Positions 35,147 to 64,000 of a DNA stretch of 64,000 bases are shown in pieces. The DNA lies in the NCBI GenBank assembly GCA_039679385.1, contig JBDKVB010000165.1, positions 1-64,000 on the forward strand, in the 5' to 3' direction. A program made the translations under genes and the position numbers. Origin of the DNA: Armatimonadia bacterium. GTDB taxonomy: Bacteria > Armatimonadota > Zipacnadia > Zipacnadales > JABUFB01. The stretch's first letter is position 1. The number at the start of each line of letters is the position of its first letter. The notes below the pieces were generated by a model that saw nothing but the letters and a program-made list of their open reading frames with translations, was not told where the DNA came from and made no database searches.

Positions 35147-36112
35147 CTAACGCCCGACCTCACGGCCTGGTGCGCTGTCCAGCAGTCGCAGCACCTCGGC
35201 GCGATCCGAGACAAAGTAGTCGCCCCGGATACCCAGCTTGAGTGCTGCCATGGCGGCCCCGAAGGCCATGCCCTGTGACACCGAGCCCTCGAGCACGCCG
35301 CAGAGGACTCCGGCTGCGAAACAATCCCCGGCTCCGAGCCGATCCTGGGCCTCGACCGGGTACCCCGAGCACTTGTGCAGGTCGTGACCGTCCCAGGCCA
35401 CTCCACCCTCTCCGCCGAGAGTCACCACGCACAGTCCCGCGCCGAAGCGATCCGAACAGGACCGCACGAGCTGCTCCGGCTCGCCCTGCAGACCGAACAC
35501 CTGCCCGGCATCCTCGCGGGTGAGGAACAGGTAGTCAGCGCCCTGCATGAGTGGCTCAAGGCTCCGGGCGGCCTGCTGGGGCGACCACAGCTTCGCCCGG
35601 TAGTTGACATCAAAGGAGACCGGCACGTGCGCCGACCGGGCAGCCTGGACCAGGTCGCGAGTCACCTGCAGGCACTGCTCGGAGAGTGCAGGGAGGATCC
35701 CTGACAGATGCAGAATCCGGGTGTCGAGCAGGAAGTCGAGGTCAAGCTCTGCGGTCTGCATCGACGCGACGGCCGAGTGGCTGCGGTCGTAGATCACCTG
35801 CGTCGGTCGCGGGCTCGCGCCCGCCTCGACGAAGAACACCTCGTTGCGGGCTTCGGTGGTCCAGACTACTCTTGAGACGTCGACGCCGTGGTGGCCAATC
35901 TCCCGTGCCACGCGCCGCCCGAGGGCGTTGTCGGTGAGTCGCGAGACCCAGGCCGTCTGTCGTCCCATCCGCGCCAGGGCCACCATGGTATTGGACTCGG
36001 TCCCGGCAGTGCGCACCTCGTACATCGGCGCGGTCTCCAGCCTCTCCCCCGGCTGGACCGACAGGCGCAGCATGGTGGAGCCAACGGTCGTTACATCGAA
36101 ACGCTTCGACAT
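35147..36112 (-). CDS. kdgK: 2-keto-3-deoxygluconate kinase, PfkB family
   Basis: The ATG at 36110-36112 opens FDVTTVGSTMLRLSV, the normal first strand of PfkB kinases; a longer frame adds 38 unlikely residues. The 321-residue enzyme has the N-terminal substrate region with G-T-E-S-N-T-M-V-A-L-A-R-M-G (PfkB box 1-like), FDVNYRAKLW near 167-176, typical of KDG kinases, and the catalytic GAGD in DRLGAGDCFAAG (D263). It phosphorylates KDG to KDPG, the substrate of the adjacent eda product. The ribosome-binding site is poor. It is divergent from tex across 236 bases. Confidence 0.88.
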   Translation of the reverse strand: MSKRFDVTTVGSTMLRLSVQPGERLETAPMYEVRTAGTESNTMVALARMGRQTAWVSRLTDNALGRRVAREIGHHGVDVSRVVWTTEARNEVFFVEAGASPRPTQVIYDRSHSAVASMQTAELDLDFLLDTRILHLSGILPALSEQCLQVTRDLVQAARSAHVPVSFDVNYRAKLWSPQQAARSLEPLMQGADYLFLTREDAGQVFGLQGEPEQLVRSCSDRFGAGLCVVTLGGEGGVAWDGHDLHKCSGYPVEAQDRLGAGDCFAAGVLCGVLEGSVSQGMAFGAAMAALKLGIRGDYFVSDRAEVLRLLDSAPGREVGR

Positions 36113-36228
36113 GGTGGGCAGCTCTGTCCTTCCCCTGGTAACGTGGACGCAAGCCCTCCGGCGTCCCAGAGTTCTGTTCGCAAGGGTCGGCGCAATCCCC
36201 TCCACGACCTCCGACGGGACGCCCACCC

Positions 36229-38714: not shown

Positions 38715-39992
38715 ATGTCCAAACTCGTCACCGCGGTCATTGTGGGAGCCGGACACCGTGGCGTCGGCTACGGTTCGTACAGCCTGTCACACCCCGAGGA
38801 ACTCAAGATCGTCGGCGTCGCCGACCCGGACGACGTGCGCCGGGAAAAGACGCGGGCCAAGTTCGACCTCCCGGCGGATCGCTGCTACCGGACTGCCGAG
38901 GAACTGGCTGCTGCACCACGCTTCGCCGATGCGGTGATCAACGGCACGATGGATCTACAGCATGTGCCGACGACACTCCCGCTGCTCGACGCCGGCTACG
39001 ACGTGCTGCTCGAGAAGCCGATCTGCCCCACGCGTGAGGAACTGCTGACGCTTCTTGCCAAGGCACGAAGCACCGGCTGCAAGCTCATGATCGGGCACGT
39101 GCTTCGCTATGCGCCCTTCTACGTTGGGGTCAAGAAGCGCGTCCTAACGGGTGACATCGGCGACATCATCAGCATCAACACTACCGAGCGGGTGAGCTAC
39201 CACCACATGGCGGTCGCCTTTGTGCGGGGCAAGTGGAACCGGCGCGAGGTCAACCCCATGCTGCTGGCCAAGTGCTGCCACGACCTCGACCTCATCTCCT
39301 GGTTCAAGAGCGGCGTGGCGCCGACGCAGGTAGCGAGCTTCGGACACCAGAGCTACTTCAAGCCGGAGTGCGCACCTGAGGGCGCAGGAAAGCGCTGCCT
39401 GGTGGACTGCAAGATCGAGGAGCAGTGCCGCTACTCCTGCCGCAAGCACTACATCGAACAGCGCCGCTGGGGTGCCTACGCCTGGGAGAGTATCGAGCAC
39501 ATCGCTAACCCGACGGACGAGGACAAGCTCGAGTCTCTGCGCACCGACAACCCCTATGGCCGCTGCGTGTGGCACTGCGACAACGATGTCGTCGACCACC
39601 AGTCGGTCATCGTCGACTTCGAGGACGGTACGACCGCAGCGCACACGATGGTCTGCGGCACGGCCAAGCCCTGTCGGACGCTACATGTGGTCGGGACGCG
39701 CGGGGAGATCGAGGGCGAGATGGAGGCGGGCAAATTCGTCGTGCGCCACCCGGATGCTCGGGCCGGTCACGAGTACAGCGAGGAACTGGTGGACCTGAGC
39801 GTGACGGGCGATGGCCACGGAGGCGGCGACATGCGTCTGGTCGGCGACTTCGTGAGCGTCGTGCGGGGAGACGAGCCTTCCATCTCCACCACGTCGGTCG
39901 AGGATTCGGTCTACGGCCACCTGATTGCCTTCGCCGCCGACGATGCGATGGTGCAGAGCCGCGTCGTACCGATCGAGAACCTCAAACAGTAG
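38715..39992 (+). CDS. Gfo/Idh/MocA-family oxidoreductase with cysteine-rich insert
   Basis: This 425-residue cytoplasmic oxidoreductase has an N-terminal Rossmann fold (VIVGAGHRGVGYG) and the catalytic lysine in LLEKPICP (K101). The probable active-site H189 is in AKCCHDLDLISW. An insert of about 70 residues carries cysteines at 219, 228, 232, 238, 242, 284 and 288, spaced like a metal-binding cluster. Comparable inserts occur in a recognised Gfo/Idh subgroup, so this is a subgroup mark rather than a new fold. GGGAGAG four bases before the ATG gives a good start. It follows tex by 53 bases and converges on the amidotransferase operon through a terminator. Confidence 0.88.
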   Translation: MSKLVTAVIVGAGHRGVGYGSYSLSHPEELKIVGVADPDDVRREKTRAKFDLPADRCYRTAEELAAAPRFADAVINGTMDLQHVPTTLPLLDAGYDVLLEKPICPTREELLTLLAKARSTGCKLMIGHVLRYAPFYVGVKKRVLTGDIGDIISINTTERVSYHHMAVAFVRGKWNRREVNPMLLAKCCHDLDLISWFKSGVAPTQVASFGHQSYFKPECAPEGAGKRCLVDCKIEEQCRYSCRKHYIEQRRWGAYAWESIEHIANPTDEDKLESLRTDNPYGRCVWHCDNDVVDHQSVIVDFEDGTTAAHTMVCGTAKPCRTLHVVGTRGEIEGEMEAGKFVVRHPDARAGHEYSEELVDLSVTGDGHGGGDMRLVGDFVSVVRGDEPSISTTSVEDSVYGHLIAFAADDAMVQSRVVPIENLKQ

Positions 39993-40066: not shown

Positions 40067-41098
40067 TCAGTTCTCCGCGATCCACTTCACCCGGGTGCGC
40101 GGCACGGTTCCCTCGCCGAACATGCCCGGCACCCTCTCGGTCACCAGTTCGACCTTTCCCTGCTGCAGCAGACGGTGGATGGCCTGGTAGGCTACCAGCG
40201 CCTCCTGCCCAAGATGGCCCTCCGACCGCAGCGCCGTCGCAGCCTTGCACAGGTTTCCCAGGCCGCAGATGCCCTGCTCCTGCAGGACCGGCGTAACGGC
40301 CTCCACCACCGCTGCCAGGGCTGGTGGCGGACCGGCAGGTATGCGGATCTCTGTAAGCGGGTGCAAGGTGAAGCTCGAGAGCGAGAACCTGCCGGCGCAG
40401 TTCCCCGGCATCACCATGCGCCACTGCGTGCCCTCCGGGAAGGCGATCTCAGTGGTCGCTCCGTAGATGGCGCTGTCGCTATGCCCGAGGACCAGCGGCT
40501 GGTTGATGCGCAGGCCCACGAAGCTGTCCGGCACGTCAGCGCTGATCGTCAGCCCGACGATCTCCGAAGGCCAGTCCTGGAAGGTCCGTGCGCCGGCCTC
40601 CAGGAGGTCAGACCCCTCGCGCAGGTACTCCTCGATCTGCAGGCACATGACCTCGCTCACGTGGACCGAGTTGCCGTCCTGCAGCATCGGGTAGTTGCCG
40701 ACCGTCTCAGGGACTCCTGAGCGGAAGCGATATCCGCGATCCAGCAGCAAGTTGCCGGCACGCACGTAGTCGGTGGTGTCGGAGAAGACGCCCACAGCGC
40801 CGTTGGCTACGTAGGCCATGGTCTCCGCGTTGCCGACGAAGGGGTGAGCCCACTCTCTGCCGCCGCCACTCGGGGTGCGACTGTGGGCAATCCCCAGCGT
40901 GCCGGGAAGGTCCATGGCGTCCGTCTGCTCACGCAGTGCCTTGACGTCGCCAACAACCTTGGCGTAGTGCAGCTTTCCCTCGTGAACCGTGGCGACGCCG
41001 GTGTAGAAGCCGCCACCAAGTCCCTCTTCACGCTCCAGCATCTCCAAGAGCATCGGGGCTGCCGGCTTGTCTCCCAGGTATGCAGCGATGACGCACAT
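40067..41098 (-). CDS. Stand-alone class II glutamine amidotransferase (GATase2, Ntn-hydrolase)
   Basis: This 343-residue protein begins M-C-V-I-A-A-Y; after removal of Met, Cys2 would be the N-terminal nucleophile of class II amidotransferases. Further family features are GIAHSRTPSGGGREWAHPF (residues 69-87, the H-x-R-x-x-x-x-G loop) and A-N-G-A-V-G near 98-103 for the oxyanion site. No sugar isomerase (SIS), asparagine synthetase or phosphoribosyltransferase domain follows; the C-terminal 150 residues end in a small helical segment. It may release ammonia for a separate partner or act as a plain amidase or glutaminase-like enzyme. It is the last gene of the 40067-45976 operon. The ribosome-binding site is not evident. 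Confidence 0.8.
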   Translation of the reverse strand: MCVIAAYLGDKPAAPMLLEMLEREEGLGGGFYTGVATVHEGKLHYAKVVGDVKALREQTDAMDLPGTLGIAHSRTPSGGGREWAHPFVGNAETMAYVANGAVGVFSDTTDYVRAGNLLLDRGYRFRSGVPETVGNYPMLQDGNSVHVSEVMCLQIEEYLREGSDLLEAGARTFQDWPSEIVGLTISADVPDSFVGLRINQPLVLGHSDSAIYGATTEIAFPEGTQWRMVMPGNCAGRFSLSSFTLHPLTEIRIPAGPPPALAAVVEAVTPVLQEQGICGLGNLCKAATALRSEGHLGQEALVAYQAIHRLLQQGKVELVTERVPGMFGEGTVPRTRVKWIAEN

Positions 41099-41131
41099 CG
41101 GCGAGTTCGACCTTTCTGCGCTGTACTTACT

Positions 41132-43402
41132 CTAGGCCCGGAGGGCAGCCCTCTCTTGCGGCAGACGTTCCTTCAGCAACTGCTCCAGCCGTCCCAGCTT
41201 CTCCTCCACCAGCCGCCGGTCGATCATATACCCGTAGGCCTCGCCATGCCAGCCAAGCCGGGAATCGGCGTCGAGCAAGGGCAAGGCCGACGCAGCGCTC
41301 TCGGCCTCGGCACGACAGATCGCCTCGATCTTGTCGAGAAGCTTCCGCTTCGTCGCAGCCTCCTCGGCGGCGCAGAAGGCGTTCCTGGTGAGCAGGAAGT
41401 CGACCACGTTGGCGGCGCTGAGGGTTTGCACGACATGGAACCGAGCGACGGCTGTTTCCCGCGCCAGGCGTCGATGGTCGTCGCCCTCGATCTTCGCCAG
41501 GGCGGCGTCAAGCAGGGCGATCGCCTCCGTGGCCTTGGCCGCCTCGGAGCGGAAGCACTCCAGCACCTGCTCGGGCGTGAAGGGCGAGACCCAGTTCAGC
41601 AGGTCACCCTCGATGTTCTTGTCCAGAAGCCAGGAGTGCGGGAAGGCGCGGTTGATCTGGTCGAAGATCAGCAGGAAGGCAGGGCCCCGACTGACCGGCC
41701 CGGTGTACATGACGGGGATGCTGCTGGGGAAGTCCTCATGGGCCTCCGAGAGCTTCTGCCAGGCGGCGACCACCTCGTCGGCGACCTTCGGCCCGAAGTT
41801 CCGCAGGGCCACACGCCGCAGACCCTCAGCCACTTCCGCAGGCTGAGGGGACCAGGTGAACTCGCCGGCGGTCTCTGTGCCCAGCGAGGGCATGTTGCCG
41901 AAGTTCCAGCAGGTCATCATCCCGCTTACGCCCGTGTCGCGCAGGGCGACGTACTTCCGGGCGATCTTGGGCAGGTCCGGCAGGTAGGGCACGTCCGGGT
42001 TCTCGTGGGTCGTGCCGATCTGTATCTTGGCGTACACGGGCAGGTCGCGTCCGCGCTGGAAGTCGGCAACGCCCTGGAATCGCGGCGAGGGCCCGACGAC
42101 CTTGATGCTGTACTCGTCGTTCGTGTAGGCATACCCGCAGGCCTGCGTGGGCTGGCCGCGCTCGAAGTCACCCATGGCGATCACGCCCTCAGGCAGAGCC
42201 TCAAGCACACCGCGCTGCGGGTCGGGCTCCCACATCGCCCAACTCCAGTTCCACACGATGATCTCCGCCTCGGGCTTCACTGCCCAGGCTCCATCCCGCA
42301 CCAGTCGCACGATCTCGCCGACGACTTCCTGAGGGGTCCGCTGTGAGCAGCGAGGACAGGTGGCGACCTCGCCGGTGCGCTCCTCGGGCTTTTGCGGGTT
42401 CACTCGCGACCGGCACCAGCAGTGGCTGGGGAACTCGGAGGCGGTGATCATCATCATCCCGGCCAGTTCGGGCACATGCCGGAGGATGTACTCGGTCGAC
42501 TCACGCAGATAGGTCTTGACCTCGTCGGTGCTGGTGCAGAGCTGAACCAGCGGCTTGTAGCTGGAGGCCGCACCTCGACACTGCGGGTGATTGCGGAAGA
42601 ACTCATCGGTCTCCGGAATCGCCATGGGCTCGTTGATGTACAGGAAGACGTCGATCCCATAGCGGGCGGCCCTCCGGCACAGGTCCTTGAGGCGGGCAAG
42701 GACCTCTTCGGCCTGCTGCCCGAACTCTGGGAAGACACTCACTTTGGCGAAGTGACGGAAGGCGGCTCGCAGCCAGATTCCATTGAACCCGTGCTGAGCC
42801 AGCCGCATCAAGAGGCTGTCGTGGTAGAAGAGGTCGGGACCGGCGTCCTCCTCCTGATAGGCCGGGTAGGCCATGCCGGGCGAGAGCCACTCCGCATTGA
42901 AGGGGTCGCCACCAAAGCCCGTCAGTTCGTCCACATAGAAGGGCGACAGCGGCGAGCGATGGATGCGACGCCGGAACTGTGGCCGCCGTGTCTCCTCACC
43001 CAGCGGGGCAATCGGTCCACCTCGCTCGCGCATCAGGTTCTCCAGGCGGAAGACTCCCTGCAGCACGCCGGTCGGACCGGCACCAGTCACCTCGATGCCC
43101 TCACCACTCACACACACTCGGTGCGTCTCCGGATTGGCGTCCAGCGACGGGTCGATCCCCAGCCGGATCTGGTGCGCAGCGCTCTGACAGCCCAGCGTGC
43201 CGCCCACGGACTGGGTGATGAAGTCCGTCAGGTGGTCGGCCGCCACGCGGGCCAACTCCGCATCACACTCGACGCGGATCGCCCAGGTCTGGTCGATCGT
43301 CACCTCACCAGCACCGGCAACCGCACCCGCACGACAGAAGGACTCCTCATAGGTCGGCGTCAGAAGCTCCGCTGCGAAGGGCATCGAGTCGATGATCTTC
43401 AT
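41132..43402 (-). CDS. TIM-barrel glycosidase-like protein with GH20/GH67-type N-terminal domain
   Basis: This 756-residue protein starts with an alpha/beta domain (to ~125) that ends in GPTGVLQGVFRLENLMRERG, the hallmark helix of helper domains in GH20, GH67 and GH84. A large barrel follows, with FNGIWLRA, GIDVFLYINEP, MMMITASEFPSHCWCR and a C-P-R-C pair nearby. A C-terminal helical domain ends the chain. The glutamate in TASEF is a candidate catalytic acid. No signal peptide is seen, so it may act on imported oligosaccharides. It starts 3 bases after the ASRT-family gene's stop, so the two are very probably coupled. The exact family is unassigned. Confidence 0.72.
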   Translation of the reverse strand: MKIIDSMPFAAELLTPTYEESFCRAGAVAGAGEVTIDQTWAIRVECDAELARVAADHLTDFITQSVGGTLGCQSAAHQIRLGIDPSLDANPETHRVCVSGEGIEVTGAGPTGVLQGVFRLENLMRERGGPIAPLGEETRRPQFRRRIHRSPLSPFYVDELTGFGGDPFNAEWLSPGMAYPAYQEEDAGPDLFYHDSLLMRLAQHGFNGIWLRAAFRHFAKVSVFPEFGQQAEEVLARLKDLCRRAARYGIDVFLYINEPMAIPETDEFFRNHPQCRGAASSYKPLVQLCTSTDEVKTYLRESTEYILRHVPELAGMMMITASEFPSHCWCRSRVNPQKPEERTGEVATCPRCSQRTPQEVVGEIVRLVRDGAWAVKPEAEIIVWNWSWAMWEPDPQRGVLEALPEGVIAMGDFERGQPTQACGYAYTNDEYSIKVVGPSPRFQGVADFQRGRDLPVYAKIQIGTTHENPDVPYLPDLPKIARKYVALRDTGVSGMMTCWNFGNMPSLGTETAGEFTWSPQPAEVAEGLRRVALRNFGPKVADEVVAAWQKLSEAHEDFPSSIPVMYTGPVSRGPAFLLIFDQINRAFPHSWLLDKNIEGDLLNWVSPFTPEQVLECFRSEAAKATEAIALLDAALAKIEGDDHRRLARETAVARFHVVQTLSAANVVDFLLTRNAFCAAEEAATKRKLLDKIEAICRAEAESAASALPLLDADSRLGWHGEAYGYMIDRRLVEEKLGRLEQLLKERLPQERAALRA

Positions 43403-43405
43403 GCC

Positions 43406-43780
43406 TTACTCACCGTAGCCCAGGGTGGTGTAGTAGGCCAGGTTCGGCTGGCGCACATCGGCCCGTCCCATCTGCACCACAATCGGAACCGAGGAGCGCA
43501 GACGCAGGGCGTACTGGCCGAAGGGAACCTGGAAGTTGCGGTCGCCCACGGGCTTGTCCATGCGGAAGCAGGTGACCCGCCGTGCCGGAGCGAGGAGCTT
43601 GATGCCGGCCTCGGGCTCGCGGTCGGAGAAGTACACGTCCATCTCGATGTGCGCGTCCTCGTCGCCGGTATTCAGTACGACCAGCGACTCGTGGCCCTCC
43701 AGCGGCAGTCCCTCTTCACCCGCCGGGGGCAGGTCGCCATCGGGGAAGATCCACGTCTTGCGGCCGTCCGGTGTGTTCAT
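43406..43780 (-). CDS. ASRT-family (sensory rhodopsin transducer-like) beta-sandwich protein
   Basis: The 124-residue sequence aligns end to end with the Anabaena sensory rhodopsin transducer family (PF07100 type). It has W-I-F-P-D-G near the start, H-E-S-L-V-V-L-N-T-G-D-E-D-A-H, Y-F-S-D-R-E-P, A-P-A-R-R, and S-V-P-I-V-V-Q near the end. The family folds as a small beta-sandwich tetramer. Genomic studies proposed that most members bind small molecules, probably sugars, and do not partner rhodopsins. There is no rhodopsin in the window, and the next gene, 3 bases on, is a glycosidase, which favours a sugar-binding or regulatory role. GGAAGG lies upstream of the ATG. Confidence 0.85.
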   Translation of the reverse strand: MNTPDGRKTWIFPDGDLPPAGEEGLPLEGHESLVVLNTGDEDAHIEMDVYFSDREPEAGIKLLAPARRVTCFRMDKPVGDRNFQVPFGQYALRLRSSVPIVVQMGRADVRQPNLAYYTTLGYGE

Positions 43781-43826
43781 GTTTCCTTCCTTCGCTTCTC
43801 ACAGACGGCGACCAGGCGCCGTGTAC

Positions 43827-44711
43827 TCACGCCCACTGACCCGCAAGTTTCTGTGCCGTCCTGAAGGTAGCACCGCGCTCCAGCAGGCGGTCGACCAGCA
43901 CCGTGAACTGCTCCATTGCATAGTCGCCGCAGTTCTCCACCAGGAAGTAGTCGGGCTCGACGGCGCCCTCACCGTAGTGCAGTCGCGTGGGCATCGGCAT
44001 GAACTCCCAGGGGTGGAAGTAGAAGCACAGCACTGCCGGCAGACTCCGCTCAGCGATGTAGCCGAGGAAGTTGTCGATGTGCACCATTAGCTCGTCGGCG
44101 CTCTTGTTGCGGAACAGCGGCCATTGGTCACGGTCACGGTGATAGGGGTCGTCGCTCTCGACCGTCATGTCGCAGAAGATGGGGATCTCGACCAGCTTCA
44201 GATCTCCGGTCTCCCGCCAGTCCTCGCGGCTCGGGTGGTAGGGCACAAGCTGCTTCTCATAGCAGTAGAGCGGATAGGAGGCGTCGGCCACGTAGCCCAG
44301 ATCGTCCAGGGCGTTGCATACGGCAGTGCTTCCCCACAGACGCGGGCAGCGGAAGGAGACAGGCCTCTCGCCGAGTGCCTCGGTTACCCAGTCCGTCGCG
44401 ACCTTCAGGCGGAAGGGCACTTCCTCGGGCAGCAGCGGCTTGACGCCGGGGATCTCGAAGATGGGGTCGCCGACGGTCTCGTGGTACAGCGAATGGCAGC
44501 CGACCTCGTGTCCGGCTTCCTTGACGCTGCGCACCACTTCGGGGTGCAGCCGCGCGCTCTCGCCGGTGAAGAAGAAGGTGCCGGTGATGCCCCGGCTCCG
44601 GTACAGGTCCAGGATCTTGGGGGTGCCGTCGGTCACACCGGTGTAGTCGATTCCCCAACTGCCCACATCGGTCTCCATGTCGAAACCGAAGACGACGGTG
44701 ATGTCGCTCAT
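43827..44711 (-). CDS. Polysaccharide deacetylase family protein (NodB homology, CE4)
   Basis: The ATG at 44709-44711 gives MSDITVVFGFDMETD; a TTG-led extension of 14 residues is unlikely. The 294-residue protein shows NodB motif 1 (F-D-M-E-T-D, with D11 as catalytic base or D15), motif 2 (H73-S-L-Y-H77, zinc ligands) and motif 3 (FRCPRLWG). There is no signal peptide, so it could act on a soluble acetylated sugar or oligosaccharide, or on another N-acyl or imide compound as some family members do. It lies downstream of the M24 homologue after a strong hairpin, and 46 bases before the ASRT-family gene. Confidence 0.85.
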   Translation of the reverse strand: MSDITVVFGFDMETDVGSWGIDYTGVTDGTPKILDLYRSRGITGTFFFTGESARLHPEVVRSVKEAGHEVGCHSLYHETVGDPIFEIPGVKPLLPEEVPFRLKVATDWVTEALGERPVSFRCPRLWGSTAVCNALDDLGYVADASYPLYCYEKQLVPYHPSREDWRETGDLKLVEIPIFCDMTVESDDPYHRDRDQWPLFRNKSADELMVHIDNFLGYIAERSLPAVLCFYFHPWEFMPMPTRLHYGEGAVEPDYFLVENCGDYAMEQFTVLVDRLLERGATFRTAQKLAGQWA

Positions 44712-44754
44712 GGTCTGCTCACTTGCCTTCGTATAGGTCTGGGTGATACCCAAC

Positions 44755-44778
44755 GGGTCGCCGACGAATCGGCGACCC
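44755..44778 (-). terminator. Perfect 10-bp UUCG-loop hairpin between the M24 and deacetylase genes
   Basis: Arms 44755-44764 and 44769-44778 pair perfectly; read on the minus strand the tetraloop is UUCG, an exceptionally stable loop. It lies between the stop at 44813 and the next start at 44711. No U-tract follows (GTTGGGTATC), so it may be a transcript-stability or partial-termination element. Confidence 0.55.
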
Positions 44779-44812
44779 CCGTCGATCGGTCACAAGGCAG
44801 ACTTGCCCCGAC

Positions 44813-45976
44813 CTAGAGCTCGATGACTTCGAGGTGCTTCTCGGACAGCCACTCGACGCCGGACTTGGTGACCCGCACGCCGTCTTCCCAGCGCATTCCG
44901 AAGCCCTTGGTGTACAGGAAGGTGTCCACCTGGAAGGTCATGTTCTCGGCCAGCGGGTACTTGGAGCTGGACTCCATCCACGGGCGCTCGACTTCCATCA
45001 AGCCGATGGAGTGGCAGGGGCCGTAGAGCAGGTAGTCGCCGTAGCCACGGGCCTTGACGAACTCCTCGAACTTGATGACGACCTCGGCCGCGGGCACGCC
45101 GGCCTTCATCATTTCGGCGGTCTTGAAGTGCGCCTCCAGGCCGAACTCCGCCAGCTCGCGCATCTTCGCCGGCATCTTGCCAAAGCACACCGGGCGGCCG
45201 ACGCTGGAGGAGTAGCCGTTGACCAGCGCGCCGATGTTGAGCTGAATCAGCTCGCCCTCCTTGAGGACCTTGGGGCTCGGGCGGCCGATGGCATGGGTGC
45301 TGTTGCGGCCCGAGAGCACGTAGGTCGGATGGCCCTCGTACTCGGCGCCGTTCGCATACATTGCTGCCTGCGCAAGACCGACAACCTGCTGCTCGGTCAT
45401 GCCCGGCTTCATGTTGTTGAGGACGTACTCGGTGGCGACTTCGCTGATGCGGAAGGCCTCACGCATGCACTTGAGTTCGTTGGCGCTCTTGACGGTGCGC
45501 ATATCGACGATGAGATCGTCGGCGCGGACGATCTTCGCCTTGCCGACGCCCTTCTTCAGTGCGTCGTGGAGGGTGACCGGCATGACGGGAAGGCCGGCGA
45601 TGCCAAGGCGCTTGACTTCCTTGCCACCAGCGGCGGCCGCGATCACGTCGGCGAAGGTGTCGAGGACGACGCCGGGATACTCAGGCTCGGCCGACTCACG
45701 GTACTCGAGAAGCTGCATGATGCGGCCGGTTTTGGCCCGGTCCTGGGCGAAGGTGAGGGTCTCGGGGCCGATGAGCAGGATCGGGTCTCCCTCCCGACCC
45801 AGGGCTACGCCGCCGGTCTCAAAGAGCGGCCAGTAGTCGGCCAGGTACCGCACGTTGGACGGATCGGCTTCGTCCCCGTGGGCGATGAGGACATCGATAT
45901 CGGCCTGCGCCATCTTCTCCTGCAGTGTCGCCCAACGCTTGGCGAACTCGGACTTGGGGATGCTAGGCGTTGCCAT
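44813..45976 (-). CDS. M24 (pita-bread fold) creatinase/prolidase homologue with altered metal ligands
   Basis: This 387-residue protein has an N-terminal creatinase domain (to ~150) and a C-terminal pita-bread domain with DMRTVKSANELKCMREA. Of the five metal ligands of M24 aminopeptidases, the two aspartates are replaced (N247 in LNIGA, S258 in GYSSSVGR) and the EPG glutamate is D351. H322 in CHSIG and E364 in RWEDG remain. The substrate-contacting H of HExP is V329. It may therefore be metal-independent, as creatinase is, or a non-peptidase. The ATG at 45974-45976 has GGGAG 11 bases away; a GTG two codons upstream has better spacing. It is the first gene of the operon. Confidence 0.82.
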   Translation of the reverse strand: MATPSIPKSEFAKRWATLQEKMAQADIDVLIAHGDEADPSNVRYLADYWPLFETGGVALGREGDPILLIGPETLTFAQDRAKTGRIMQLLEYRESAEPEYPGVVLDTFADVIAAAAGGKEVKRLGIAGLPVMPVTLHDALKKGVGKAKIVRADDLIVDMRTVKSANELKCMREAFRISEVATEYVLNNMKPGMTEQQVVGLAQAAMYANGAEYEGHPTYVLSGRNSTHAIGRPSPKVLKEGELIQLNIGALVNGYSSSVGRPVCFGKMPAKMRELAEFGLEAHFKTAEMMKAGVPAAEVVIKFEEFVKARGYGDYLLYGPCHSIGLMEVERPWMESSSKYPLAENMTFQVDTFLYTKGFGMRWEDGVRVTKSGVEWLSEKHLEVIEL

Positions 45977-46235
45977 CAGCACGTTCACTCCCGTTGGTGA
46001 TCTGTGAAGTCGCCCAGGGGCCACAGTGGCTCGGGTACGACCAGTCACTCTCTCGATCAAAGGTACGTGCAGGTTCGCCGAGCTGGCCGGGCTCCCCTTC
46101 ATCGATACGCCCACTTTGTCCAGCCTGCCTCAGGTCGAGGTGAAGGGCAAAGGATTCAGTCCGCGCCCGGGGAAGTGGGTCGCCTTGTCGCTCAGTATCC
46201 ATCGCGAACCAAGGACGCAGGGAGGCCAGTGCTCC
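45977..46235. promoter_or_regulatory. Divergent intergenic region between M24 operon and barrel-glycosidase pair
   Basis: These 259 bases must hold promoters for the minus-strand operon (40067-45976) and the plus-strand pair (46236-50378). I find no -35/-10 pair that meets consensus well. TTGATC with a 17-base spacer reaches only TACCCG on the minus strand. Confidence 0.35.
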
Positions 46236-48221
46236 ATGCATGACCCCAAGTGGTGTATCTTCTTTGACTTCCATACGATGCCGGCGTGCCCTGACGTCGG
46301 CGCCGGGTTCGACTTCGACGCCATCACCGGCCAACTCGCCGACTGCGGCGTGGACTACATGGTATTCCCGGCCCGCTGCAATCTCGGCGTGGCCTACTAC
46401 AACACCAAGGTCGGCATCCGCCATCCCTCGCTGCAGTACGACCTCATCGGCAAGCTCTCCGAGGCCTGCCAGAAGCGCGGCATCGCGCTGTCGTGCTACA
46501 TCAACACCGGCCTCAGCCACGAGGAGGCCCTCCTCCACCGCGAATGGTGCGTGCTCAATCCCGAGGGGTACACCTATCGCCCCAACCGTCTCGACCACTT
46601 CTTCCGCCAGATGTGCTACAACACCGGCTACACCGAACACCTGGAGGAGATGATCCGCGAGCTCGTCTCCGGGTATCCGATCTCCGGCCTGTTCTTTGAC
46701 TGCATGCACACCCAGCCCTGCGTGGGCGTCGAGTGCATCCGCGAGATGAAGGAACTGGGCGTGAACTGGCAGTGCGACGAGGAACTGCACCAGTACAACT
46801 ACATGAAGATGAACCGCTTCGCACGGCGGATTGCCGATACCGCGAAGGCCGTCAACCCGAACCTTCTGCTCTACTGCAACGGGGTCGACTACGAGGCGCA
46901 GAGCGACATCGGCACCTACCTGGAGTTCGAGTGCCTCCCCACCGGCGGCTGGGGCTATGAGACCCTTCCGGTCGGTGCTCGCTACCTGCGGACCCTGGGC
47001 AAGCCGGTCCTGAACATGAGCGGACGGTTCCACAAGTCCTGGGGCGACTTCGGCGGCATCCGCACCGAGGCCAGTCTCGAGTACGACTGCGTGTACGGTA
47101 TGGCCAACGCCATGCGCACCACCATCGGCGACCACTTCCACCCGCGCGGCGACATCAACAAGGCGGTCTTCGACCTCTACAAGCGTCTCTACGACCGGCT
47201 CCAGCGCTATGAGCCCTGGCTGGACAAGGCTACCGCCGAGGTCGACACCGCGATCGTGTGGCCCTATCCCTACCCCGGCTACAAGTACATGGCACCGGCA
47301 GCCCGCGAGACCTTCTCGCAGTACTACACGGCCCTGAAGGGCGCTTGCCGACTGCTGTGCGAGCTCAAGTGGCAGTTCGACATCGTCACCGACTTCTCGG
47401 ACTGGGACAAGTACGAGCTGCTCGTGCTGCCCGACCGCACTCCCCTCAACGAGGAATGGGCAGGGCGAATCCGCAAGCACCTCGACAAGGGTGGTGCGAT
47501 CCTCTCGAGCGCCTGGTCGGGTCTGGATCCCGAGGGCAAGGACTTCGTCTTCGAGGATTGGGGCCTGCACTTCGCCGGCGAGGACCCCTATGACCCGGCG
47601 TTCTTCCGCCCCTCTGCCGAGGTCGCCGAGAAGATGCCGGACATGCCCGTCACGCTCTACCAGAAGGGCACCTGCATCGAACCGCTGCCGGGAACGGAGG
47701 TTCTTGCGGAGATCATCGCCCCCTACTACAACCGCCATTGGGACGGCGAGCACGGGTTCGTGTATCTGCCGCCGGACAAGCCAACTGGACGAGCGGCACT
47801 CACCCAGAAGGGTCGTCTCGGGCACTTCAGCCACCCGGTGTTCAGCAGCTACAACCTCGATGCGCAGGTGCCCATCAAGCAGATCGTAGCGAACCTGCTG
47901 GGCCGCATCATGCCGAATCCGCTGGTGAAGGCGCCCGGTCTTCCTTCCTTTGCCCGTGCCAACGTCACGGCTCAGCCCGGTCGCCGGATGCTGCACCTGA
48001 TGTCCTATGTGCCGGAGCGCCGTGGCGGCACCGTGGACATGATCGAGGAGCGTATCGAACTGCGGGACGTCGCCGTCGCGCTGCGTGCGGACGGCCATGA
48101 GGTCAAGTCCGTATACCTGGCGCCCGATCGGCAGGCACTGCCCTTCGAGGTCCGCGACGGCTATATCCACACCACCGTGCCGGAGGTGGACGGTTACGCG
48201 ATGGTGGTATTCGAGGACTAG
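46236..48221 (+). CDS. Glycoside hydrolase-like barrel with beta-galactosidase trimerisation domain
   Basis: The ATG at 46236 has GGAGG ten bases upstream; a longer frame adds 70 residues that overlap the divergent region and is not supported. The 661-residue product has a barrel with GLFFDCMHTQPC near residue 150 and CNGVDYEAQSDIGTYLEFEC near 210-230. A Rossmann-like trimerisation domain (~365-470, YELLVLPDRTPL) of the GH42 type follows, then a beta domain. It lacks a signal peptide, so it is likely cytoplasmic. Specificity is unknown. It is followed 60 bases later by a protein of the same architecture, suggesting a tandem pair with related substrates. Confidence 0.72.
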   Translation: MHDPKWCIFFDFHTMPACPDVGAGFDFDAITGQLADCGVDYMVFPARCNLGVAYYNTKVGIRHPSLQYDLIGKLSEACQKRGIALSCYINTGLSHEEALLHREWCVLNPEGYTYRPNRLDHFFRQMCYNTGYTEHLEEMIRELVSGYPISGLFFDCMHTQPCVGVECIREMKELGVNWQCDEELHQYNYMKMNRFARRIADTAKAVNPNLLLYCNGVDYEAQSDIGTYLEFECLPTGGWGYETLPVGARYLRTLGKPVLNMSGRFHKSWGDFGGIRTEASLEYDCVYGMANAMRTTIGDHFHPRGDINKAVFDLYKRLYDRLQRYEPWLDKATAEVDTAIVWPYPYPGYKYMAPAARETFSQYYTALKGACRLLCELKWQFDIVTDFSDWDKYELLVLPDRTPLNEEWAGRIRKHLDKGGAILSSAWSGLDPEGKDFVFEDWGLHFAGEDPYDPAFFRPSAEVAEKMPDMPVTLYQKGTCIEPLPGTEVLAEIIAPYYNRHWDGEHGFVYLPPDKPTGRAALTQKGRLGHFSHPVFSSYNLDAQVPIKQIVANLLGRIMPNPLVKAPGLPSFARANVTAQPGRRMLHLMSYVPERRGGTVDMIEERIELRDVAVALRADGHEVKSVYLAPDRQALPFEVRDGYIHTTVPEVDGYAMVVFED

Positions 48222-48281: not shown

Positions 48282-50378
48282 ATGGCGTTCAAGCTCAGCA
48301 CTCGCATGCTCTTTTGCGACTGGCACATGCCCAACTTCCTGCCCGAGATCAAGATCGACTACGACGAGTACTTCGAGGGGGTCAAGCGCACCGGGGCGCA
48401 GAGCATGATCTTCATGTCCAAGACCGCCCACGGGACCTGCCTGTTCCCCAGCAGTGTCGGCATCACGAACCGGACGATGCACGGCGACCTGTTCGGCGAG
48501 ATCGCCACGCGGGCCAAGGCGGCCGGGCTGGAGTTCATCGCCTACTACAACATGATCCTGAGCTGGGAGCTCGCGCGGCTGCACCCGGAGTGGACCCAAC
48601 TCGACCGAGAAGGCAAGCCGCTGCGGATGTTCCTGTACCCGTGCTCGTGCATGAGCAACGAGGAGTTCGCCGATCACGTCTCCAGCCACATGGCGGAGGC
48701 GACTGCCCGCTATCCGATCGACGGCTGGTTCCTTGACCTGCAGTACTTCGCGCCGCAAGGATGCTTCTGCCCCTCCTGTCGTCGCCGGTTCAAGGAGCAG
48801 TTCGGTTACGAACTCGACCCCGAGCACTTCGGGGTCGCCCAGTGGCTCGACCTGTACACTTACCAGGTCAAGACGCGCGAGGCCTTCATTCACCAGGCCC
48901 TTGACCGCTGCAATGCCGAGAAGCCCGGCCTGAGCTGGTCCTGGAACGGCTGCGGGAACCCGAGCTCCATCTCGGCCACCCTCGATGAGGGCGCCCACTA
49001 TCTGTCCACGGAGGCCCATCCTCCCTCCTACCTCCACGCGAGTCATGCCACCCGGTACTGCGAGGGGCTGGGCAAGCCCTTCACCCTGTTCATGCCCGAG
49101 AGTCAGGGCTCCTGGGGCGACTGGACGGTCACGACCCCGGCGACCATCAAGGGGCTGTCCGCAATCGCCCTGGCGCACGGCGGTGCGCTCAACATCAACC
49201 ACATCCCGTACCCCTGCGGTGACCACGGAGGCAAGGTCCCACAGAAGGTGTGGGACACCATCGCTGAGACCTTCCGCTTCGTCGCCGAGCGTGAGGAGTT
49301 CTGCTCGGGCAAGCGCCCGGTGCCCTCAGTGGCCGTCTTGCACTCCGCCTACAACTCCCGGCTTCTGCAGTCGATGGCCCGTGCCGGCAAGGGAGGCCAC
49401 TTCGGCTCCGCCACTTACAGCAACGAGTCCGCGCTGTCCCAGTTGCTGCTCGAGACTCACCTCTCCTGGGAGATCTGTCCGGAGACGATGACCCTGGAGC
49501 AGATGCGCAGCTACGAGCTGATCATCCTGCCCTACATGCCCTATGTGTCCGAGGAGCTTGCGACCAAACTGCGGGCCTACGTGGAGGGGGGCGGCCGTCT
49601 CCTGGCCGGCTACCACACCTCGCTGTTCGGTGAGAAGGGCGAGAAGCTGGAGAACTTCAGCCTGGCCGACCTCTTCGGGAGCGACTACCAGGAGGACTCC
49701 GCCTACAGCATCAGCTACCTGGACAACTTCGACGAGGCGCTCGTCGGAGAGCTGCCCGACATGCCGCTGCTCATCAAGGACGTCTCAAGCGGGCTGATGA
49801 ACCCGGCGAACCACGCTCTCTACTGCCGTCCGCGACCGATGACGAGGACGCTGGCGCTGATCACCGACCCGATCATTGAGAGCGACTTCGAGATCGGGCA
49901 CTATGTGTACCACGACCACGCGCCTCCGGGATACGCGACCGACTACCCCGGCATCACACTAAGCAGCTACGGCAAGGGCCAGGTCCTCTACTTCGCGGTT
50001 CCCTTCCTGCAGGGATACGCGACGAAGAAGTCGCCCTTCCTGCAGCGGCTCTTTGCCCTGCTGCTGACGGACCTGCTCGGGGTGTCAGGCAAGGCTCGCG
50101 TCGAGGCTCCGAGGTCTGTGAAGACCTCGCTGATGCAGGACGAGGAAGGCTGGCTGCTGCACTTGGTGCATCTGCAGCAAGGCACCGACGACATGTACCT
50201 GGACAGCTTCTACCGGCCCGACCCGATCACCGTGCGGGTGAATCCGGGCTGGAAGGTGAGCAGCGCCCAGGAGTGCGTGACCAAAGAGACCTACGAGCTG
50301 CGCCAGTCGGAGGAGTGGACGGAGTTCACGATCCCAGGCATCCGGGACCATCTGGTCGTGCGTATCGCGCGAGGATAG
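48282..50378 (+). CDS. Glycoside hydrolase-like barrel with trimerisation domain, relative of the preceding gene
   Basis: This 698-residue protein has the same domain order as the upstream gene: a barrel with WFLDLQYFAPQGCFCPSCRRRFKEQFG-type elements near 150-175 (a C-x-C-x-x-C cluster), a Rossmann-like trimerisation domain (YELIILPYMPYV, ~410) and a beta-sandwich tail. A purine-rich GGAGAGGGGACG lies before the ATG. The Cys cluster is a common mark of this uncharacterised family and may bind zinc. There is no signal peptide. It is probably co-transcribed with the 46236-48221 gene, and converges on the MFS transporter gene with only 18 bases between stops and no terminator. Confidence 0.72.
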   Translation: MAFKLSTRMLFCDWHMPNFLPEIKIDYDEYFEGVKRTGAQSMIFMSKTAHGTCLFPSSVGITNRTMHGDLFGEIATRAKAAGLEFIAYYNMILSWELARLHPEWTQLDREGKPLRMFLYPCSCMSNEEFADHVSSHMAEATARYPIDGWFLDLQYFAPQGCFCPSCRRRFKEQFGYELDPEHFGVAQWLDLYTYQVKTREAFIHQALDRCNAEKPGLSWSWNGCGNPSSISATLDEGAHYLSTEAHPPSYLHASHATRYCEGLGKPFTLFMPESQGSWGDWTVTTPATIKGLSAIALAHGGALNINHIPYPCGDHGGKVPQKVWDTIAETFRFVAEREEFCSGKRPVPSVAVLHSAYNSRLLQSMARAGKGGHFGSATYSNESALSQLLLETHLSWEICPETMTLEQMRSYELIILPYMPYVSEELATKLRAYVEGGGRLLAGYHTSLFGEKGEKLENFSLADLFGSDYQEDSAYSISYLDNFDEALVGELPDMPLLIKDVSSGLMNPANHALYCRPRPMTRTLALITDPIIESDFEIGHYVYHDHAPPGYATDYPGITLSSYGKGQVLYFAVPFLQGYATKKSPFLQRLFALLLTDLLGVSGKARVEAPRSVKTSLMQDEEGWLLHLVHLQQGTDDMYLDSFYRPDPITVRVNPGWKVSSAQECVTKETYELRQSEEWTEFTIPGIRDHLVVRIARG

Positions 50379-60626: not shown

Positions 60627-63600
60627 ATGCGAAGGGCAATCCTGCTGCTTACCGTGCTACTCGCAGCCGCCAGTTCAGTGGCGTTCGCACAGACCGAGAC
60701 GCCGGGCATAGACCTGACGGGGGTGCTCACGAACCCCGGCTTCGAGCAGGCGGACAACCGGCCAGACCCGGTAGGCTGGCGTCCCTTCATCAGTGGGCAG
60801 GGCTTCGAGCTGTCCCGGGATGCCTCGGTCGCCCACAAGGAGCAGGCCTCTGCACGCCTGATCGGACGACAGGGCGCTTCGGACCGCTCCTGCTACGGGC
60901 AGATGACGGCAGCGCTGAAGGCTCCCAGGTACCTGCGCCTGCGACTGTGGTACCGCGGCACGGGGTCGAGCGACGGCTTCGTCAGGTATCGGCCCGTGAC
61001 CGGCGTGAAGGTCCCTAACGACGAGTACGGGACCTACCCCTTCCGCGTCAAGCTTCCCGCCGCCGACTGGCAGGAACTCGTCTTCGACGTCAAGACTCCG
61101 GCGGCGGCGCTTGCGGCTGAGAAGGTGCGGCTCGAGGTCAACTTCTACCAGCGCTCCACTGGGACTCTGTGGGTGGATGACGTCTCGCTGGAGGGCTTCG
61201 AGAAGATGCCCTGGACCCTGGCCCTTCAGGAAGACGTGGACCCGCTGGCCCAGCACCGACGACCGGCTGACGGGCTGGTGGTGCAGCAGAATCCGCCGGA
61301 CTTCAGTTGGAGTCCGCAGACGGAAGCGACCGAGTATACCTTTGAGTTGAGTCAGAACCCGGCCTTCCCCGCCGACAAGATGATCCAGCGCAGGCTCAAG
61401 TACATCTACTACAGCCACTCCGCAACCCTCGCTACGGGCACCTGGTACTGGCGCTGGCGCTATGCGACCGAAGACGGCACGCTGTCGGGCTGGAGCCGCA
61501 CGACCAGCTTCACTGTTCCGGCCGAGGCGGTGCCCTTCCCCGTGCCGACGGTGGAGGAGATGCGGCGAGCCGTCCCCGTAAGCCACCCGCGCATCTACAC
61601 CACGGCGGCGCAATTGAGCGCCTTCCGTGCGCCGCTTCAAACTTCGAGGAAACAGTGGTGGGAGACCTACTTCCGCCCAAACGCCGAGCGACTGTTGAAG
61701 GAACCCGTGGCGACCGAGCCGCCGGCGGACTGGATCGTCGGCGCACGGCCCGGTGGTGGGCCACTCACCGATGAGCTGGTGGCGGTGCTCGGCAAGCTGG
61801 AACAGCACTGCTTCCGCATCGCTGACCGCCTCGAGCAGCTTGGATTCGCGTACCTGATCAGCGGCGATCGACGCTACGCTGACGCGGCGATTGCCCAACT
61901 GATGGAGATCTCCAAGTGGGACCCCGAGGGTGTGACCTCCTACCGAAACACCGATCGGAGCTTCCGGGCTCTCACCTTCGAGCCTGCGCTGGCCTACGAC
62001 TGGTGCTGGGAGGCCATGACCCCGGAGCAGCGCCAGACCATCCGCCAGGCCATCGCCAGACGAGGCGCCCTGTTCATCAGCCACTTCCGCGACGGCGCGC
62101 GCCCGCTGTACAAGTACCCCTATGACTCTCATGCAGTGACCGCGCTGAACTACCTCGTGCTCGTCTCGCTGGCCCTGCTGCATGATGAGCCGGTCGCCAC
62201 CGACTGGTTCGACTTCCTGATGTCCGTGTACCCGGCGATGTACCCGCCCTGGGGTGATGAGGACGGTGGCTGGGCGCAGGGCGTCTCGTACTGGAAGTGG
62301 TCCATGCCCGACGGCTGCTGGGTCTACGATGCCCTCAAGAGCCTGATAGGTCTGGACTTCTACCAGAAGGCACACACCCGGAACAACCCGTGGTTCAAGT
62401 TCTACTTCCAGCCGCCCTGGTGCACCAGCAGCCACTTTGGCGACGGCAATCCAGGCGCAGGGGCCGACAGCACCGACCGCGCGAATCTGGCCCACTATGC
62501 CGCGGTCTACAAGGACCCGTACCTGCAGTGGTATGCGCTCACTCCCAAGCCCTACAACCCCAACACCTACGGGCCGTACAGCTACTGGTGGTATGACGAG
62601 CAACTGGCGCCGCGACCGCCGGCTGATCTGCCCCAGGGCAGATGGTTGCGCGACATCGGCTGGGTGGCGATGCACTCGGACCTGTCCGACCCCGACGACC
62701 TTATGCTGATGTTCAAGAGCAGCTCCTACGGCTCCTGGAACCACTCGCAAGCCGACCAGAACAGCTTCGTGGTGTATGGCTACGGCGAGCCGCTGCTCAT
62801 CGACTCGGGCTACTACGACTGGTATGGGAGCCCCCACGATGTGGGCTACACGCGGCAGACGAAGGCCCACAACGACCTCCTCGTGAACGGCGCCGGGCAG
62901 CCGGTCTGGGACAAGGGTGCCACGGGGAGCATCGCCCGGTACTTCTCCAGCCGGCCCTTCGACTACACCTGCGGCGATGCCACGCCCGCCTACAAGGGCG
63001 CCTTGCAGGGCTTCCAGCGGCACATCCTGTACCTGCGGCCCGATGTCTTCATCCTTCTTGACGAGGTGAAGACCGAGACTCCGAGCGAGTTCACCTGGGC
63101 CCTGCACGCGCTTGAGAAGATGCAACTGGAGGATAGCAGGCAGCAAGTGACCGTTCTGCGGGGTGACAGCAGGTGTCAGGTTCGCTTCCTTTCTCCGGAG
63201 CAACTGAAGTTCGAGCTGACCGACCAGTTCACCCCGCCGCCGACCACTCCGCATGCCAATCAGTGGCACCTGTATGCCACCACCGCGACGAAGGCGACGA
63301 GCGCGGTCTTCGTCACAGTGGTCCACCCGTGGCATCCGGGCGAGACAGGCCCACTGGACCTGCAGACACGTCGTGAGGGCGACCGGGTGCTGATCTCGTG
63401 GCCCGGTGGAAGTGCGAAGCTCTGGACCGGTCCCGCAGACAGGCTCCCCGCAGGCGAGAGCCGATTCTCCCTTAGCGGTGACTGGCAGCCCGGTCGGCTC
63501 GCGACGGCGATGGTGGATGGCACGAAACTGGTCCTGGAGACTGCTGACGGACCACGCACGCTCCTGAGCAGCAGTGTGCAGGCAACGGCCTCGGCAGAGC

Positions 63601-64000
63601 TGTCCGGCAAGGACCCGGCGGCAGCCAGGGTCACCCGGGTCACGGTGCAGCTTCAGGAGACCGGAGAGGTGCGCCTTCCCTTCGCCGCCTCGGGCCTTCC
63701 TGATCTCCTGCTTGATGGCAAGCCCCTTGCAGCAGATCAGGCCCTGCCGGGCCAGGGAGAGAACCTCGCCCTGAGGCTTCCTGCGGGCACGCATGTGGTG
63801 GAGGTGAAGTCGGAGGAGATCCCCGCAGCCGCCTCGATAGAGGTGCTGCGGGATGGTCAGCCGGTGCCCACTTCGCTGGAGGCCCTGCGCAGGTGGGATG
63901 GCTCGGTGCTGCAGTGGGGCACGCTCTCCACGGACGCCACCCCGGTTCGAGTGGAGAGCCTGCAGGTACCGGAGGGCGCCCAGGTGTCCCTGGGCCAGGG
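60627..64000 (+). CDS. Secreted heparinase II/III family protein, 3' end beyond the window
   Basis: The frame opens at ATG 60627 with AAAAGGAG upstream and stays open to the window end (1124 codons so far). The N-terminus is a signal peptide (AILLLTVLLAAASSVAFAQ). A jelly-roll CBM (~30-195) is followed by a fibronectin-like DUF4962-type segment (NPPDFSWSPQTEATEYTFELS) and an alpha/alpha toroid with S-H-A-V-T-A-L-N-Y-L. The heparinase II/III beta domain has SWNHSQADQNSFVVYGYGEP and DSGYYDWYGSPHDVGYTRQT, then H-N-D-L-L-V. These carry the His and Tyr residues used for beta-elimination of uronates. A C-terminal beta domain follows. It probably cleaves an acidic polysaccharide outside the cytoplasm. 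The antisense strand also carries a long open frame, which is a composition artefact. Confidence 0.88.
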   Translation, partial: MRRAILLLTVLLAAASSVAFAQTETPGIDLTGVLTNPGFEQADNRPDPVGWRPFISGQGFELSRDASVAHKEQASARLIGRQGASDRSCYGQMTAALKAPRYLRLRLWYRGTGSSDGFVRYRPVTGVKVPNDEYGTYPFRVKLPAADWQELVFDVKTPAAALAAEKVRLEVNFYQRSTGTLWVDDVSLEGFEKMPWTLALQEDVDPLAQHRRPADGLVVQQNPPDFSWSPQTEATEYTFELSQNPAFPADKMIQRRLKYIYYSHSATLATGTWYWRWRYATEDGTLSGWSRTTSFTVPAEAVPFPVPTVEEMRRAVPVSHPRIYTTAAQLSAFRAPLQTSRKQWWETYFRPNAERLLKEPVATEPPADWIVGARPGGGPLTDELVAVLGKLEQHCFRIADRLEQLGFAYLISGDRRYADAAIAQLMEISKWDPEGVTSYRNTDRSFRALTFEPALAYDWCWEAMTPEQRQTIRQAIARRGALFISHFRDGARPLYKYPYDSHAVTALNYLVLVSLALLHDEPVATDWFDFLMSVYPAMYPPWGDEDGGWAQGVSYWKWSMPDGCWVYDALKSLIGLDFYQKAHTRNNPWFKFYFQPPWCTSSHFGDGNPGAGADSTDRANLAHYAAVYKDPYLQWYALTPKPYNPNTYGPYSYWWYDEQLAPRPPADLPQGRWLRDIGWVAMHSDLSDPDDLMLMFKSSSYGSWNHSQADQNSFVVYGYGEPLLIDSGYYDWYGSPHDVGYTRQTKAHNDLLVNGAGQPVWDKGATGSIARYFSSRPFDYTCGDATPAYKGALQGFQRHILYLRPDVFILLDEVKTETPSEFTWALHALEKMQLEDSRQQVTVLRGDSRCQVRFLSPEQLKFELTDQFTPPPTTPHANQWHLYATTATKATSAVFVTVVHPWHPGETGPLDLQTRREGDRVLISWPGGSAKLWTGPADRLPAGESRFSLSGDWQPGRLATAMVDGTKLVLETADGPRTLLSSSVQATASAELSGKDPAAARVTRVTVQLQETGEVRLPFAASGLPDLLLDGKPLAADQALPGQGENLALRLPAGTHVVEVKSEEIPAAASIEVLRDGQPVPTSLEALRRWDGSVLQWGTLSTDATPVRVESLQVPEGAQVSLGQ

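Follow-up and report, generated by a model that had tools for sequence, protein, structure and literature searches.

Genes for a CE4-fold hydrolase and an M24-fold protein form the conserved core of a gene cassette, which a small partner (ASRT or DUF6786, never both), a GH20/84/138-fold glycosidase and a GHL6 glycosidase join. The grouping of M24, CE4, ASRT and glycosidase genes that we describe here, in a window of 64,000 nucleotides (the whole stretch of DNA that was analyzed), is not due to chance. The distribution of the cassette is patchy and takes in many phyla, with the window carrying the Armatimonadota version. On balance, it probably serves as a cytosolic cassette for sugar catabolism. 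The sugar, derived from a glycan and possibly a 6-deoxyhexose, would be stripped of a group that is acyl or C-N-linked.

The window comes from a 5.6 Mb genome, 97% complete, whose relatives are Armatimonadota labeled WS1 or Zipacnadia in public records. The locus comprises five intact open reading frames on the minus strand, given below with the promoter-proximal gene first, and two GHL6 genes on the plus strand:

44813..45976, minus strand: M24/creatinase-prolidase-fold protein, 387 residues from ATG (PF00557)
43827..44711, minus strand: CE4-fold (polysaccharide deacetylase-like) hydrolase, 294 residues (PF01522), the core marker of the module
43406..43780, minus strand: ASRT-family small β-sandwich protein, 124 residues (PF07100), a predicted sugar binder
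41132..43402, minus strand: TIM-barrel glycosidase with a GH20b-like N-domain, 756 residues, recognized from a weak Pfam match and a fold model
40067..41098, minus strand: GATase2, a GlmS-type class II glutamine amidotransferase domain with a C-terminal extension, 343 residues
46212..48221, plus strand: GHL6 glycosidase, α-L-fucosidase-related, divergent from M24, 669 residues, a module member
48282..50378, plus strand: second GHL6 glycosidase, directly 3' of the first, 698 residues (PF14871, Glyco_hydro_42M)

The minus-strand genes are separated, in the order listed, by gaps of 101, 46, 3 and 33 bases, confirming the coordinates and the head-to-tail arrangement on one strand, with gaps of 3 to 101 bases, given in the initial annotation. 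Its assignments of M24, CE4, ASRT and GATase2 to their families also hold, as judged by Pfam or NCBIfam scores. Visual inspection revealed nothing resembling a signal peptide at the N-terminus of any of the five proteins, which upholds the suggestion that the proteins act inside the cell in the window organism. A scan of the locus for terminators and promoters gave matches at chance level only. The region is flanked by genes for a Gfo/Idh/MocA oxidoreductase (38715-39992, plus strand) and a PfkB sugar kinase (35147-36226, minus strand). Elsewhere in the window, a 1039-residue open reading frame (60675-63794, minus strand) had no Pfam match at E 0.001.

The CE4 protein was searched against 84,980 genome species and 80 loci were kept, of which five, with ~24% identity, were set aside, leaving 75 for analysis. 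An M24 gene, scored as a partner if it lay on the same strand and within 6 kb, was found at 57 of these 75 loci, a relative of the barrel glycosidase at 27, an ASRT gene at 16 and DUF6786 at 38. The loci span 11 phylum-level groups, labeled as in the records: Armatimonadota, Planctomycetota, Lentisphaerota, Kiritimatiellota, Verrucomicrobiota, Hydrogenedentota, Bacteroidota, Bacillota, Spirochaetota, Aerophobota and Actinomycetota. A functional module, as envisaged in the initial annotation, is thus conserved beyond close relatives and in several phyla. Cultured carriers of the core gene set include Paenibacillus, Cohnella, Parapedobacter and Mariniphaga. Where at least 2.5 kb of sequence was available on each side of CE4, M24 was present at 39 of 49 loci; several loci from Lentisphaeria have CE4 and DUF6786 and lack M24.

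Because the entire window genome contains only four M24 genes and one ASRT gene, their adjacency by chance would be expected with a frequency of about 1 percent or less. The order M24-CE4-ASRT-GH is repeated in other genera, and parts of it recur across the 11 phylum-level groups; in the Armatimonadota nearest to the window, which share this order, the CE4, M24 and ASRT proteins are about 66-91% identical to those of the window. Among 151 Armatimonadota genomes, 24 had the CE4 family and 24 had ASRT, with both in 17 (3.8 expected; Fisher p 7e-12, relatedness ignored). Such p-values are inflated because the genomes are related; the phylum spread is independent of them. Pairwise distances between the partners were also correlated (0.83 for CE4-GH, 0.80 for CE4-ASRT and 0.51 for CE4-M24). 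A plasmid search with P0002 yielded no full-length match.

The initial annotation had treated all five minus-strand genes as a unit. Whereas M24, CE4, ASRT and the glycosidase do recur together elsewhere, GATase2 is excluded by its neighborhoods, and its gene is a bystander adjoining the module. The protein has an MCVIAA start, with the Cys of class II amidotransferases directly after the initiator Met, and it matched NCBIfam glmS (1.4e-17, query residues 2-228) and 1xff (2.7e-4). Non-GlmS matches to it were found in about 15 genomes, and the relatives carry them in other contexts; in one family (f6), GATase2 is consistently beside CvpA-like, sigma-factor and glyQS (glycyl-tRNA synthetase) genes. 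None of the 75 CE4 loci had a GATase2 match, and the same-family genome G002, with the full M24-CE4-ASRT-GH set, has no GATase2 ortholog. These unrelated contexts and absences led us to reject it as a pathway partner. That all five genes form one pathway in the window organism would fit the spacing of 33 bases between GATase2 and the glycosidase on the same strand, and the lack of a terminator-like site between them in a low-power scan, but given the neighborhoods just described it is extremely improbable. The "ammonia chemistry" proposed for the locus is dropped as well, because it rested on GATase2, which is not a module member. As a separate observation, a lone GATase2 with a conserved C-terminal extension, outside any synthetase, occurs in a subset of Armatimonadota (L061-L072).

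The original gene set was also incomplete, in that the divergent GHL6 glycosidase upstream lies in the conserved neighborhood too. This protein (46212-48221) matched PF14871 at 5e-19 and PF01120 just over the cut-off. Close orthologs occupy the same divergent position in three other genomes (G001, G002 and G022), while GHL6 genes adjoin the module at eight of the loci and adjoin ASRT at another. The first GHL6 gene belongs to the module. The second, which matched PF14871 (3e-14) and Glyco_hydro_42M (2.5e-10), is a possible member.

The CE4 protein matched PF01522 (Polysacc_deac_1) at 6e-16, with 58.9 bits against a cut-off of 23.1. Residues D11, D15, H73, H77 and H233 are invariant in 33 sequences and a NodB-type Asp-His-His metal triad is present; judged by sequence, the metal site is intact. 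The folds nearest to an AlphaFold model (pLDDT 93.5) were 3rxz, 3qbu/HP0310, 3lm3, PuuE allantoinase and ArnD, over ~220-260 residues with Z of 21-24. The protein shares with the HP0310/PuuE/ArnD branch a full-length fold and an Asp-His-His-type metal site, but it is only 16-20% identical to these proteins, and the invariant blocks DQWP and FYxHPWE are its own. The substrates of characterized enzymes in that branch are small molecules or lipid-linked sugars rather than chitin.

The M24 protein matched PF00557 at 2.5e-39 (135.7 bits, cut-off 23). We took a functional M24 metallopeptidase to have five metal ligands, i.e., D, D, H, E and E. In the window protein both Asp ligands are replaced (N247 and S258) and a Glu has become Asp (D351), with H322 and E364 kept. 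Across 57 sequences of the family, two retain the first Asp ligand and none has the second; at the third ligand Asp takes the place of Glu, and the His and the last Glu persist. Because both metal-binding aspartates are lost, the protein is unlikely to be an ordinary metallopeptidase; it could still bind one metal via H322, D351 and E364. In a profile search prolidases scored highest, with 1chm (creatinase) at 4e-26 and 6twk (ectoine hydrolase DoeA) at 9e-16. The protein resembles these two pita-bread non-peptidases in its incomplete metal site and conserved N-domain, although prolidases are closer by sequence. Three N-domain glutamates (E36, E53 and E72) are invariant and, by analogy, would suit an active site of composite type, like that of creatinase.

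For the barrel glycosidase, the match to GH20b was weak (3e-4) and fell short of the Pfam cut-off, and the catalytic domain was not matched in Pfam. Its fold model (pLDDT 89.3) has a GH20b-like domain and a TIM barrel of the GH20/84/67/138 type. Foldseek ranked GH138 and GH67 first, with the GH138 rhamnogalacturonan II enzyme 6hzg as the top match (E 2e-18), whereas the best VIA-align matches were GH84 and GH20 hexosaminidases (Z about 21). Conservation is at least 90% for S322 and E414 in both alignments and for E323 in the larger one, and E323 (end of β4) and E414 (end of β6) are the putative catalytic residues. The GH20b-like N-domain, the TIM barrel and the Glu at the end of β4 are common to GH138, GH67, GH20 and GH84, but identity to these families is 10-14%, and the acidic pair of GH20 and GH84 is missing. 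In N-acetylhexosaminidases this pair, which follows β4, is Asp-Glu (GH20) or Asp-Asp (GH84); in the window protein its position is occupied by S322-E323, as placed by alignment and strand order rather than by superposed coordinates. Without an Asp preceding E323, the substrate-assisted chemistry of N-acetylhexosaminidases is less likely.

The substrate is unlikely to be an amino sugar that is N-acetylated (of chitin-, peptidoglycan- or glycosaminoglycan-like type), with the barrel enzyme acting as an N-acetylhexosaminidase and CE4 as an N-deacetylase. Although the GH20b-like N-domain, the VIA-align matches and the N-deacetylases among the relatives of CE4 are all consistent with it, the replaced acidic pair and the second conserved Glu at β6 are not, Foldseek favors other families, and the CE4 fold is nearer to HP0310/PuuE/ArnD than to chitin deacetylases. 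Moreover, NagA, NagB and GlcNAc kinase were not recognized among the module neighbors inspected. The acetylated amino sugar suggested in the initial annotation thus found no specific support, the glycosidase lacking the acidic pair and the recurring metabolic neighbors pointing to sugar acids and to sugars of the neutral or 6-deoxy kind. Glycosidase members from different phyla are 23-37% identical, so that substrates may vary. Two relatives (L126:12528-14942 and L147:12850-15252) have Tat-like (RRQF) or hydrophobic signal-like sequences at the N-terminus, suggesting that the enzyme may be exported in other phyla.

Outside the window genome, recurring neighbors of the module are sugar ABC transporters, LacI regulators, RhaT and L-rhamnose mutarotase. 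One Paenibacillus locus has the order LacI, ASRT, sugar-binding protein, DUF4838-like glycosidase, CE4, RbsA, ribose-type permease and M24. Genes for RhaM (L-rhamnose mutarotase-like) lie between CE4 and RhaT/DUF6786 at four loci (L124, L126, L127 and L133); they scored 87 bits with TIGR02625, slightly below the cut-off, and exceeded the cut-off for Pfam rhaM. RhaT was found in eight loci, seven of them within the 6-kb rule, and RhaM and RhaT lie beside CE4 at loci from Bacteroidota and Kiritimatiellota. L133 adds L-fuconolactonase-like and galactarate-dehydratase-like genes, the fuconolactonase being seen only once. Genes for MlrC and SMP-30/gluconolactonase accompany the module in Cohnella and Paenibacillus. 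The setting is sugar catabolism, and some lineages hint at 6-deoxyhexoses. Because RhaM, RhaT and fuconolactonase occur at a minority of loci, none in Armatimonadota, the 6-deoxyhexose part may be lineage-specific.

These last three neighbors, together with the α-L-fucosidase-like score of the GHL6 neighbor and the top Foldseek match to GH138, would also suit a pectin-type or other rhamnose/fucose glycan, with the barrel enzyme as a GH138-like α-uronidase or 6-deoxyhexosidase and CE4 removing O-acetyl groups. However, the identity to GH138 is 12% and the global rmsd 7.8, RhaA/RhaI, RhaB and RhaD were not recognized in the inspected genes that adjoin the module, and a C-N-type M24 enzyme would have no explained role, making such a substrate fairly unlikely.

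The ASRT protein, the only one found in its genome, matched PF07100 at 2e-30 (105.7 bits, cut-off 25). It carries the ASRT signature, with W10, H30 and N37 invariant in the 21 module ASRT proteins. A role for the ASRT/ASRAH superfamily in sugar binding, within sugar operons, was proposed in 2009, as was a ligand-contacting Cys in the motif SHEshChhN (De Souza et al., 2009; PMC2739507). The stand-alone intracellular ASRT gene within a sugar-metabolism operon is common to that proposal and to our module; the parts of that paper concerned with ASRT name no CE4, M24 or DUF6786 partners. In the module proteins His30 and Asn37 of the motif are retained, but the contact Cys is replaced in 21 of 21, position 34 being V, I or M.

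ASRT and DUF6786 were found together at none of the 75 CE4 loci (L074-L152), and hence at none of the 49 complete ones (p 7e-6, uncorrected), although Armatimonadota and Planctomycetota each include loci of both types. A profile search revealed no PDB relative of DUF6786, so that any mutarotase role would be speculative. Because the two never co-occur, we considered whether ASRT might be a mutarotase in the RhaM slot, an idea rejected because DUF6786 coexists with RhaM at L124 and L127. Plasmid-borne ASRT genes (Sinorhizobium, Klebsiella, Caballeronia and Natrononativus) showed no link to M24-CE4; their neighbors are varied and several are sugar-related, i.e., pyruvate oxidase, a sugar porter, the mandelate-racemase family, glucan enzymes and arabinonolactone oxidase. 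A further cluster (L168:6649-12389, minus strand) is without CE4 and contains LacI, an M24 gene (34% to the module's second M24 subfamily), two ASRT genes and a further large protein; it also encodes a 637-residue protein with no Pfam match.

For the cytosolic cassette that we favor, the linkage, the conserved sites and the folds are observed, and the substrate and each catalytic step we infer. An oligosaccharide would enter the cell, where the two types of glycosidase would release a decorated sugar. CE4, with a divalent metal, would then hydrolyze an acyl bond (amide or ester) on the released sugar. M24 would be a creatinase-like pita-bread hydrolase, not a metallopeptidase, that attacks a C-N bond in that intermediate or in the one after it, and its N-domain would complete the active site. 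ASRT may bind the free sugar, as a sensor or carrier, with DUF6786 handling the sugar in other lineages, and the product would feed 6-deoxyhexose metabolism in some lineages (RhaT, RhaM and fuconolactonase). That the cassette represents an undescribed catabolism of C-N-linked or acylated (deoxy)sugars, in which a non-metallopeptidase M24 and a small-molecule CE4 act sequentially and ASRT and DUF6786 are interchangeable sugar handlers, is possible, if somewhat unlikely. If true, it would provide a general biochemical role for ASRT, which is best known from a cyanobacterial rhodopsin.

A literature search of incomplete coverage found no paper on a core of CE4 and metal-poor M24 or on the alternation of ASRT and DUF6786, and nothing useful on DUF6786 or on TM1070 with rhamnose. 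ASRT has been known in sugar operons since 2009; the core and the alternation we could not find described, in agreement with the initial view that the gene combination is undescribed. A core shared by eleven phylum-level groups very probably has one defined job. Annotation by family only would call its proteins "peptidase" and "polysaccharide deacetylase", names that are probably misleading. The cassette offers a tractable route to the role of ASRT without rhodopsin, to the role of DUF6786, and to the chemistry of an M24 protein that lacks its metal site.
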